Below are positions 16,094 through 18,579 of a stretch of 64,000 nt of DNA, in pieces. The notes beneath the pieces were generated by a model. The model searched no databases and was not told the DNA's origin. It saw nothing but the letters and a program-made list of their open reading frames with translations. The first letter of the stretch is position 1. Each line of letters opens with the position of its first letter. A program made the translations under genes and the position numbers. This DNA comes from Providencia vermicola (GTDB lineage: Bacteria > Pseudomonadota > Gammaproteobacteria > Enterobacterales > Enterobacteriaceae): contig NZ_CP048796.1 in assembly GCF_010748935.1 (NCBI RefSeq), positions 2,793,001-2,857,000 of the forward strand. The letters are read 5' to 3'.

Positions 16094-17926
16094 CTACTGT
16101 TTCAATGCATTATAAATCTTTTCTGCCAACGCGTATGAGATCGAGGGCACTTTTGCTATCTCTTCTATGCTCGCATTTTTCAGTGGCTGTAAGCCTCCCA
16201 TATATTTTAGTAGCATTTGACGACGTTTTGGTCCAACACCTTCAATTGACTCTAACGCGCTGGTATTCTTTACCTTTGCTCTACGCTGGCGATGTCCTGT
16301 TATCGCATGATTATGTGACTCATCACGAATATGTTGAATCACATGTAATGCAGGTGAATCAGGCGGTAAAGCTACGCCCTCGCCCTCAGGCTTAAAAAAT
16401 AGCGTTTCAAGGCCCGCTTTGCGATCGCTCCCTTTTGCAACGCCAATAAGTTGAGGTCTATTTTTATCCCAATCAACATCCAGTGAATCAAAGACATCTT
16501 TCGCTTGCCCTAATTGCCCTTTTCCACCATCGATAAAAATAATATCGGGTATTTTACTTTCATCCAGATGCTTACCATAGCGACGGGTTAAAACTTGATG
16601 CATGGCTGCATAGTCATCACCGGGAGTAATTCCTGTGATGTTATAGCGTCGATATTCTGATTTAACGGGACCATTCTTATCAAACACAACACACGATGCG
16701 ACCGTTTGCTCTCCCATCGTATGGGAAATATCAAAACATTCCATACGTGCTATGGCATCCATACCCACAATTTTTGCTAAAGATGCCATTCTTTGATGAA
16801 TGGTTGATTGCTGAGCACGCTTAGTTTGTAGTGCAGTAAGCGCATTCGTTCGAGCTAATTTTAAATAGCGCGCCCTCGCCCCTCGAGGTTGGGTTTGGAT
16901 CTGCACTTTTCGACCTGCAATATGTGATAAAGAGTCCGCTAGCAATTCTTTTTCTGGTAATGAAAAATCTAAGAGGATTTCACCGGGTAATGTTCTATTT
17001 TCACTGCCTTGCAAATAAAACTGCCCTAAGAAAGTTTGTACTACTTCTTCAAGTAAAGTGTCTGCTGGAACTTTTGGATAATAGCTACGGCTTCCCAATA
17101 CTTTACCTTGTCGAATAAATAACACATGAATACAGGCAAGCCCTGATTCGAATGCAACACCGATAACATCAAGGTCTTCACCATCACCAGAAACAAATTG
17201 TTGTTCCGTGACTGCGCGTACGGCCTGAATTTGATCGCGAAAACGTGCAGCATCTTCAAAACGCAGCTCCTGACTTGCCTTTTCCATCCGTTCTATCAAT
17301 CCTGTTAAGACCTGTTGGTCTTTGCCTGTTAGGAATAAACGTACGTAATTGACTTGCTGATCATATTCTTCATCGCTGACTAACCCTTTAACACAAGGCC
17401 CTAAGCAGCGACCTATCTGATACTGTAAACAAGGCCTTGAACGGTTTTTGTAAACACTATCCTCGCATTGACGAATTGGAAACAATTTTTGCATCAGCGC
17501 TAATGTTTCGCGAACCGCGTAGGAATTAGGGAACGGACCAAAGTATTCCCCCTTCGCGTGTTTTGCTCCACGGTGCATAGAGAGTCGCGGATGTGTTTCT
17601 TTACTTAAAAAGATATAAGGATAAGATTTGTCATCCCGCAACAAAACATTGTAGCGTGGCTGATAAAGCTTGATATAGTTATGTTCAAGTAACAAGGCCT
17701 CGGTTTCTGTGTGTGTGATCGTCACATCAATAGAGGCAATGTTTTTTACTAGCTGCTCAGTTTTTCGGCTACTGACTGTCGTTCGGAAGTAACTGGAAAG
17801 CCGTTTTTTTAAATCTTTAGCTTTTCCAACATAAATGACTGTTCCCCCAGCATCATACATTCGATATACGCCAGGTTGATTGGTGACTGTTTTTAAGAAA
17901 GCTTTTGGTTCGAACTGTTCTGACAC
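16094..17926 (-). CDS. uvrC: UvrABC excinuclease subunit C
   Basis: At 610 residues it equals the E. coli length. It has the N-terminal GIY-YIG nuclease (GVYRMYD and VIYVGKAKDLKKRL, residues about 19-50), the UVR coiled coil near 205-235, the RNase H-like second nuclease (MECFDISHTMGEQTVASCV near 395, DGGKGQ near 465) and C-terminal helix-hairpin-helix repeats (SIEGVGPKRRQMLLKYMGG). It makes both incisions in nucleotide excision repair. Its start overlaps the upstream regulator gene by 34 bases. Confidence 0.97.
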   Translation of the reverse strand: MSEQFEPKAFLKTVTNQPGVYRMYDAGGTVIYVGKAKDLKKRLSSYFRTTVSSRKTEQLVKNIASIDVTITHTETEALLLEHNYIKLYQPRYNVLLRDDKSYPYIFLSKETHPRLSMHRGAKHAKGEYFGPFPNSYAVRETLALMQKLFPIRQCEDSVYKNRSRPCLQYQIGRCLGPCVKGLVSDEEYDQQVNYVRLFLTGKDQQVLTGLIERMEKASQELRFEDAARFRDQIQAVRAVTEQQFVSGDGEDLDVIGVAFESGLACIHVLFIRQGKVLGSRSYYPKVPADTLLEEVVQTFLGQFYLQGSENRTLPGEILLDFSLPEKELLADSLSHIAGRKVQIQTQPRGARARYLKLARTNALTALQTKRAQQSTIHQRMASLAKIVGMDAIARMECFDISHTMGEQTVASCVVFDKNGPVKSEYRRYNITGITPGDDYAAMHQVLTRRYGKHLDESKIPDIIFIDGGKGQLGQAKDVFDSLDVDWDKNRPQLIGVAKGSDRKAGLETLFFKPEGEGVALPPDSPALHVIQHIRDESHNHAITGHRQRRAKVKNTSALESIEGVGPKRRQMLLKYMGGLQPLKNASIEEIAKVPSISYALAEKIYNALKQ

Positions 17927-18579
17927 CCTAATAAACCCTGTTTGGCTACGATTAACCCATAGCTGATAGCAATATGAGTTAATTCTACATCACTACGGAT
18001 ATTAAGTTTACCAAACATTCGATATCGATAGGTATTTACCGTTTTAGGGCTCAAATTAAGAAGCTGTGCAATCTGTTTGGTCGAAATCCCCTGAGTGATG
18101 AAGAGCATGATTTCAAGTTCACGAGTGGATAATAACTCATAGATATCCGTCTGATCGTTTTGATGAATGCGTTTCAATGCGATGGCTTGTGCAATATCGG
18201 GGGAAATAATTTTACTGCGCGCATTGACTATCTGTATGGCTTCTAAAAATTCATTAATTTCAATTTTTGCACTCAACACACCTTGGATCCCAAGCTCAAG
18301 AGCCTTTAATAAAAAAGCATAGTGATTGTGTATATTATAAATGATAATTCCGACATCAGGTTGAGTCCGTCTTAAGGTTTGCAAGTTTTTTAATGATTCA
18401 AATTGGCAATTATCGCTATTAATTAAGATAATATTGGCTTTTTGTTTTCTATTCCACGAAATGGCTTGCTCGATAAAGGGAAATGACGCGACAACATGAC
18501 AGCGTTTATGACGATTAAAAATAGCTTCCAGCCCGCGAATTAAAATATTATTATCGTCAATAATTATAATATTAATCAT
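17893..18579 (-). CDS. uvrY: UvrY-position LuxR-type regulator with a degenerate receiver domain
   Basis: This 228-residue protein lies upstream of uvrC exactly where UvrY lies in E. coli, and aligns to it without gaps over the receiver (E. coli sequence recalled from memory). The acidic pair Asp8-Asp9 is kept, but phosphoacceptor Asp54 is Asn, Thr82 is Asn, and Lys104 is Ala. The MPG after the Asp is also missing. The C-terminal helix-turn-helix (STRELEIMLFITQGISTKQI, then LNLSPKTVNTYRYRMF) is well kept. UvrY is the partner of BarA and drives CsrB/CsrC transcription. This copy probably cannot be phosphorylated in the usual way; it may act constitutively or by another signal. Confidence 0.85.
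   Translation of the reverse strand: MINIIIIDDNNILIRGLEAIFNRHKRCHVVASFPFIEQAISWNRKQKANIILINSDNCQFESLKNLQTLRRTQPDVGIIIYNIHNHYAFLLKALELGIQGVLSAKIEINEFLEAIQIVNARSKIISPDIAQAIALKRIHQNDQTDIYELLSTRELEIMLFITQGISTKQIAQLLNLSPKTVNTYRYRMFGKLNIRSDVELTHIAISYGLIVAKQGLLGCQNSSNQKLS

Follow-up and report, generated by a model that had tools for sequence, protein, structure and literature searches.

How can a UvrY-type response regulator serve the Csr pathway after the phospho-acceptor of its receiver domain has been lost? This question is raised by a 64,000-nucleotide (nt) stretch of the Providencia vermicola genome (contig NZ_CP048796.1, positions 2,793,001 to 2,857,000; hereafter the window), in which a uvrY orthologue next to uvrC encodes Asn at the place of the phospho-acceptor Asp54. 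The first-pass annotation of the window, made from the sequence alone, suggested a phosphorylation-independent or repurposed regulator of the Csr pathway, or a lineage in which control by the kinase BarA was lost. The best explanation, with a probability of about 0.65, is that BarA was lost and that a phosphate-free UvrY still switches a short form of the RNA CsrB. The starting points of this explanation are observed: the residue loss in UvrY, the loss of BarA, an operator-like palindrome, the presence of CsrA, and a conserved structured RNA candidate. Papers are cited below by their PMC numbers, and from the accessible part of their texts.

The uvrY open reading frame (ORF) starts with ATG and is intact (the coordinates in Table 1 include the stop codon). 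Its codons confirm the earlier reading that the acidic pair Asp8-Asp9 is kept and that Asp54, Thr82, and Lys104 are replaced by Asn, Asn, and Ala; the additional replacement of Tyr101 by Val had been missed. The intactness of the gene and its position next to uvrC were also read correctly, as the frame of 228 amino acids (aa) overlaps the uvrC start, and the places of UvrY and UvrC adjoin in relatives too. Pfam recognizes both the receiver (PF00072, 45 bits) and the GerE/LuxR helix-turn-helix (HTH) domain (PF00196, 68 bits) above the cut-off, and the NCBIfam model of UvrY/SirA/GacA (NF007018) matches from end to end with 179.9 bits, below its curated cut-off of 280. A second, intact uvrY would have made this gene a paralogue; none is present in this genome (G000; 4.43 Mb, 2 contigs), where the next best regulator is 27% identical. 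The UvrY proteins of the nearest named relatives, Providencia stuartii and P. alcalifaciens, show 90% and 74% identity, respectively.

In the AlphaFold model of UvrY, the (beta-alpha)5 arrangement is preserved; residue 54 closes strand 3, and residue 82 falls within strand 4. The model is only modest (mean predicted local distance difference test score 63, predicted template modeling score 0.46, and residues 101-144 below 50), because three sequences went into it. The receiver fold is predicted to be kept although the phospho-site is dismantled. With a recognized receiver and Asn or Ser instead of Asp at position 54 in all 24 Providencia genomes sampled, Providencia UvrY fits the class of aspartate-less regulators.

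All 24 of these genomes have a UvrY orthologue. For comparison, 119 genomes of the family were searched. At E 1e-35, UvrY was matched in 70 of them; of these, 68 lie outside the genus, and all 68 were read. The 49 genomes without such a match stand outside the counts and may conceal a further genus whose UvrY has diverged. D8, D9, D54, T82, Y101, and K104 are all kept in 68/68 orthologues from other genera. In Providencia, position 54 is Asn in 14 genomes and Ser in 10, and Asp is absent from all 24, even though the Asn54 codon AAT is one base away from the Asp codon GAT. Position 82 is Asn in 23 genomes and Ser in one, Tyr101 and Lys104 are replaced in every genome, and the acidic pair is nearly complete (Asp8 in 24/24, Asp9 in 22/24). 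Conservation of Asp54 in close relatives had been named as a sign of a strain-specific mutation; the alignment with the uvrC-linked regulators of relatives shows that the loss is not strain-specific.

In a tree of the 24 Providencia proteins and 28 of the 68 others, a single, fully supported branch sets the Asp-less proteins apart. A long stem branch leads to them, and within them Asn and Ser at position 54 interchange 3 to 5 times. The DNA-binding domain is well kept, as had been stated: the mean identity to other genera is 66% for the HTH domain versus 23% for the receiver, and 44/63 and 24/117 positions, respectively, are invariant within Providencia. In the recognition helix, Thr replaces Ser183 in 24/24 Providencia proteins versus Ser in 68/68 others, and the remaining residues are invariant. 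The ratio of nonsynonymous to synonymous substitution rates (dN/dS), obtained from those Providencia pairs (47 of 276) whose overall dS is 0.05-1.2 (for single domains, dS is in part above 1 and close to saturation), is at most 0.26 for the receiver and 0.22 for the HTH domain. The receiver of other genera stays at or below 0.10 (14 pairs shown), so the Providencia receiver is higher but clearly under purifying selection. These low values speak against decay of the gene. The UvrY proteins of G122 and G137, one of which is P. alcalifaciens, stop 9 residues earlier at TAG (219 aa), and judging from these forms the C-terminal tail may be dispensable.

BarA, CsrB, and CsrA were searched in 15 of the 68 comparison genera and in the 24 Providencia genomes. 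The BarA profile NF008318 is matched above the cut-off (890 bits) in 15/15 comparators and 0/24 Providencia genomes. The best Providencia match reaches 307 bits, and the better matches are proteins of the size of RcsC and ArcB, both names being presumed. Where the locus was read by ORF, barA adjoins rlmD in comparators. All 24 Providencia genomes have rlmD, directly beside a gene which we take to be dgt, and no barA match was found in these 24 rlmD-dgt loci at E 1e-3. The corresponding filled site is seen in comparator G012, with the order relA-rlmD-barA-dgt. G012 is the closest of five comparators by RlmD and RelA; the UvrC identities left the nearest genus unsettled. The search for barA that the first-pass annotation had advised gave no BarA above the cut-off and a visibly empty place, both in this genome and across the genus, and the idea of a lineage that lost BarA control is supported.

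G012 also shows some peculiarities of its own. Its BarA looks shortened (a frame of 792 aa at L281:2784-5159, with model positions 527-660 unmatched), and its CsrB, found in L109, is weak (287 nt, 12 GGA, 32 bits), but its UvrY receiver is normal. It perhaps represents an intermediate state.

The Rfam CsrB model (RF00018, cut-off 71 bits) is exceeded in 14/15 comparators and in 0/24 Providencia genomes (best E 0.04). This miss first suggested a loss of csrB along with barA, an idea that was rejected, as the csrB place still exists and contains an RNA candidate. A single shared deletion of the two genes, suggested by their few-kb proximity in four comparators, was likewise rejected: all 24 Providencia genomes retain truC, syd, and queF, and barA of G012 sits between rlmD and dgt, apart from the truC-syd block. 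In Providencia, yqcC (plus yqcA where the stretch reached) is found beside truC.

In E. coli, the UvrY target at csrB is an 18-nt palindrome located between -222 and -142 (PMC4682653). Wherever the stretch read in a comparator covers both syd and yqcC, csrB is flanked by the two. The UvrY-type boxes of the comparators, taken as the best within 420 bases with 0-3 mismatches to the strict form TGTAAG-N6-CTTACA, start 23-39 bases past the end of the syd alignment in 9/15 (60-749 bases, or no syd, in the others), and csrB starts 117-196 bases past the box in 12/15 (265-279 in the others). At the same place, all 24 Providencia genomes have an exact TGTANG-N6-CNTACA. It lies 33-34 bases past the syd alignment end in 21 of them; the larger offsets in G123, G124, and G130 are probably due to an earlier end of the syd alignment. 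The half-sites have partly drifted, with TGTAGG in 12/24 and CCTACA in 15/24, and nine palindromes are perfectly symmetric. The strict form occupies the csrB place in G132, G136, and G139, and is absent from this genome, whose box is located at G000:C1:3461148-3461165. In total, the strict box matched in 11/39 genomes versus 4/39 for a reversed control, and matches in four Providencia genomes lie elsewhere than at csrB. There is no UvrY box within the window, and in the 17/24 regions upstream of uvrY that could be extracted, no clear conserved promoter motif was seen. Judged by place and spacing, the csrB-place palindrome would be bound by Providencia UvrY, and it is possible that Ser183Thr and the drift of the half-sites are co-adapted.

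Past the palindrome, all 24 Providencia genomes carry an RNA candidate, 185-219 nt long, which has 4-7 GGA and includes a terminator. Its start, assumed from a conserved CATTCTTA element and not mapped, would lie 159-163 bases past the box. The CsrB RNAs of the comparators are 287-393 nt long with 12-27 GGA. In this genome, the candidate occupies approximately 3460790-3460985 on the minus strand (G000:C1), and a 304-aa ORF (L185:1478-2392, plus strand), convergent with the RNA, separates it from yqcC. The yqcC-facing side of the csrB place is rearranged or enlarged in G122, G134, and G137. Hairpin loops present GGA in near-invariant surroundings: ACAGGAnGT is found in 24/24, GCAGGATGC in 23/24 with G134 deviating, and a second hairpin form is G(G/A)(C/T)(A/G)GGnnGnC. 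The motif [CA][AG]GGANG occurs 2.96 times per RNA, whereas dinucleotide shuffles give 0.22 and the opposite strand has none, and fewer than 5% of shuffles are as high in 22/23 distinct RNA sequences. A promoter core similar to TTAATACAT precedes the RNA in 4/6 Providencia genomes and csrB in 2/9 comparators, among those displayed.

In this genome, the RNA has a better fold than its shuffles (z -3.4, 2/200 as good). In the consensus structure, 15 of 33 pairs show changes on both sides (shuffle mean 8.6, 0/500 as high), a count to be read with the fact that the structure was derived from the same RNAs and that related sequences can beat shuffles without structure. Further pair types are less striking (18/500 shuffles as high), and the paired cells drop from 93.7% to at most 44% when the structure is slid. 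A model built from the 24 RNAs (R1) finds one strong copy in each Providencia genome, as it must by construction, and second matches of at most 34 bits. No second, CsrC-like copy was convincing: six weak R1 matches share no common place, and Rfam CsrC was not searched. Five of the six are without a box, and the sixth (L271) has a one-mismatch box well over 1 kb away. By its place, palindrome, motif, and part of its promoter, rather than by overall sequence, the candidate appears to be a short CsrB, and it would be transcribed and bound by CsrA. CsrA itself is above the cut-off in 39/39 genomes, including all 24 of Providencia. The first-pass proposal of a phosphorylation-independent or repurposed Csr regulator gains support from the palindrome and the short RNA candidate with CsrA-type hairpins at the csrB place in 24/24, the phosphate-free switching being the part that would follow from them.

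Two side observations concern these components. An extra (second or third) CsrA-family match above the cut-off is found in 13/24 Providencia genomes versus 0/15 comparators, one of them in this genome (G000:C1:1919125-1919280, minus strand). Just downstream of the RNA in G125, two adjacent matches to RF02818 (Vibrio RNA AS5) lie below its cut-off of 96 bits (45 and 50 bits; L193:2402-2656, plus strand).

Several points weigh against a short CsrB switched by a phosphate-free UvrY. Plain GGA is only partly enriched in the RNA candidates (5.35 versus 3.23 in shuffles; 8/23 sequences), ANGGA is not enriched (1.48 versus 0.94; 0/23 sequences), and both the [CA][AG]GGANG motif and the relaxed palindrome pattern were chosen after the sequences had been seen. 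The Rfam CsrB model does not recognize the candidate, no Csr family was found in the Rfam scan of five of the 24 Providencia regions, and R1 in turn finds no csrB in the comparators (best 24 bits). UvrY bound at the palindrome could repress as well as activate. Since the 24 Providencia genomes share one evolutionary event, the joint losses in UvrY and BarA amount to one event and not to 24 independent observations.

E. coli UvrY has a nearly absolute need for phosphorylation by BarA, and binds about 35-fold less without barA (PMC4682653). In Shewanella, the D54N substitution blocks phosphotransfer (PMC3171408). Providencia UvrY cannot work in the E. coli way, because that mode needs BarA phosphorylation and D54N stops phosphotransfer. 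With neither an acceptor site nor a kinase seen in the genomes, it is probably active without Asp phosphorylation. The Providencia ancestor would have lost barA once, at the base of the genus, and UvrY would have turned into an orphan, phosphorylation-independent regulator. In the simplest account, which is the most likely one, it binds the csrB palindrome as a constitutive dimer. The output of CsrB would then depend on how much UvrY is present (adjusted, for instance, by feedback of CsrA on uvrY) and on other factors at the promoter, and no longer on the signals sensed by BarA, and csrB would persist as an RNA of about 200 nt with few CsrA-type GGA hairpins. Binding of a new ligand by the receiver is an alternative way in which UvrY might be controlled. 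A farther-reaching version, in which the genus rewired this global switch by rebuilding the receiver into a module that needs no phosphate and perhaps senses a ligand or a partner, and by cutting down the RNA to match, is tentative and falls somewhat short of even odds.

Other explanations of the same data were weighed. The UvrY pseudo-receiver subunit could pair with another LuxR-type regulator, so that csrB would answer, for example, to the Rcs system. BglJ pairs with RcsB in this manner, UvrY matches the BglJ model weakly (E 2e-8), and in this genome a presumed RcsB-like regulator (L004) adjoins the presumed RcsC-like kinase match, both named from position and size. Activation of RcsB by BarA/SirA has been published (PMC7241856). 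Two similar half-sites in 24/24 suit a homodimer better, though perfect symmetry is seen in only 9/24, and no partner was identified; such pairing is considered unlikely. The idea that UvrY is a dying remnant, whose frame is kept only through translational coupling with uvrC, could account for the strongly diverged receiver, with its 23% mean identity to other genera, its raised dN/dS, the long stem branch, and the shrunken CsrB. Coupling to uvrC would not conserve amino acids, however, and the intact UvrY in 24/24 genomes, the dN/dS limits given above, the 44 invariant HTH positions, and the palindrome kept in every genome leave this idea with little probability.

About as improbable is a UvrY that has moved to other targets, leaving a csrB palindrome that is a relic or is bound otherwise, and an RNA that binds CsrA independently of UvrY. 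The drift to TGTAGG/CCTACA in part of the genus, the missing strict box in this genome, and Ser183Thr in 24/24 would agree with such a move, but a relic is not expected at a constant place and spacing in 24/24, and the other residues of the recognition helix are invariant. The chemistry of position 54 might still control the receiver, through deamidation of Asn to Asp or phosphorylation of Ser; Asn deamidation in such receivers has been discussed (PMC4395418). The site, however, is Asn in 14 genomes and Ser in 10, the two having replaced each other 3 to 5 times on the tree, and Thr82 and Lys104, which are needed for a response, are gone in 24/24. This makes control through position 54 very improbable indeed, and the loss of BarA with a phosphate-free UvrY acting on a short CsrB is preferred over these explanations.

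The features around the gene are collected in Table 1. Elsewhere in the window, phage tail-type genes are found at 10050-14556, including a 980-aa tape-measure-like ORF and its followers. Shortly after them, overlapping ORFs on both strands at 15052-15313 are of the kind given by tRNA clusters, and a prophage boundary is possible near this position, judging from the ORF list only.

Table 1. Coordinates of uvrY, its domains and key codons, and uvrC in the window.
Feature	Position	Strand	Basis or remark
uvrY orthologue with pseudo-receiver, 228 aa	17893..18579	minus	ORF list, NCBIfam match, uvrC adjacency
Receiver domain, residues 2-118	18226..18576	minus	PF00072 match; phospho-site dismantled
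Asp8-Asp9 codons, acidic pair kept	18553..18558	minus	sequence
Codon 54, AAT = Asn (phospho-acceptor Asp expected)	18418..18420	minus	sequence
Codon 82, AAT = Asn (switch Thr expected)	18334..18336	minus	sequence
Codon 101 = Val (switch Tyr expected)	18277..18279	minus	sequence
Codon 104, GCA = Ala (conserved Lys expected)	18268..18270	minus	sequence
LuxR/FixJ-type DNA-binding domain, residues 147-209, well conserved	17953..18141	minus	PF00196
uvrC, normal	16094..17926	minus	start overlaps uvrY 3' end by 34 bases

No publication on a kinase-less Providencia UvrY or on a short CsrB was found in a literature search that reached few subscription papers. The accessible parts of PMC9861413, PMC11004495, PMC10333796, PMC7652902, and PMC8487129 hold no account of the state of UvrY and CsrB in Providencia, and UvrY, GacA, and Providencia are unmentioned in the accessible main texts of PMC12632262 and PMC4395418. 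Pseudo-receivers and CsrB-type RNAs are known kinds; as far as seen, what is new is that a BarA-dependent UvrY can be followed through its conversion while its target stayed in place. The finding points to a CsrB-type RNA missed by Rfam in a genus of clinical relevance, and is a caution against carrying BarA-UvrY models over to Providencia.

Compared with known systems, the Providencia arrangement resembles the BarA-UvrY(-SirA)-CsrB/CsrC cascade of E. coli and Salmonella in the regulator orthologue beside uvrC, the presence of CsrA, the palindromic box placed well upstream of a csrB that adjoins syd, and an RNA with CsrA-type hairpins. Unlike that cascade, it is without BarA and without the phospho-acceptor and switch residues, and its RNA is shorter and poorer in GGA than the CsrB of the comparators. 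With the sponge RNAs RsmY, RsmZ, and CsrB it shares (A/C)AGGA(U/A)G hairpins, a terminator, and an upstream UvrY/GacA-type box, while the Providencia RNA is short and genus-specific. Shewanella SsoR is also an orphan regulator acting without phosphorylation, published alongside BarA/UvrY (PMC11045786); it differs in belonging to the OmpR/PhoB family, in retaining its phosphorylation pocket, and in not being a UvrY orthologue.

The closest likeness in the receiver is to aspartate-less regulators such as ChxR, HP1043, and RitR, which keep the receiver fold without the Asp. The usual replacements of Asp in atypical receivers include Asn (16%) and Ser (15%) (PMC4395418), and the characterized aspartate-less regulators are mostly orphans, the on/off switching of bacterial pseudo-receivers being called a mystery in a 2025 review (PMC12632262). 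Providencia UvrY differs from ChxR, HP1043, and RitR in that it has lost Thr, Tyr, and Lys as well, and in that relatives still show the phosphorylatable form, the kinase, the operator, and the target RNA. The states before and after can be compared gene by gene, between the phosphorylation-dependent E. coli system and the Providencia system without acceptor and kinase but with the palindrome kept, and the conversion of a phospho-switch into a phosphate-free regulator becomes a directly testable question. If the farther-reaching version holds, nature would have turned a regulator that depends on phosphorylation into an independent one, at a promoter of unchanged layout.

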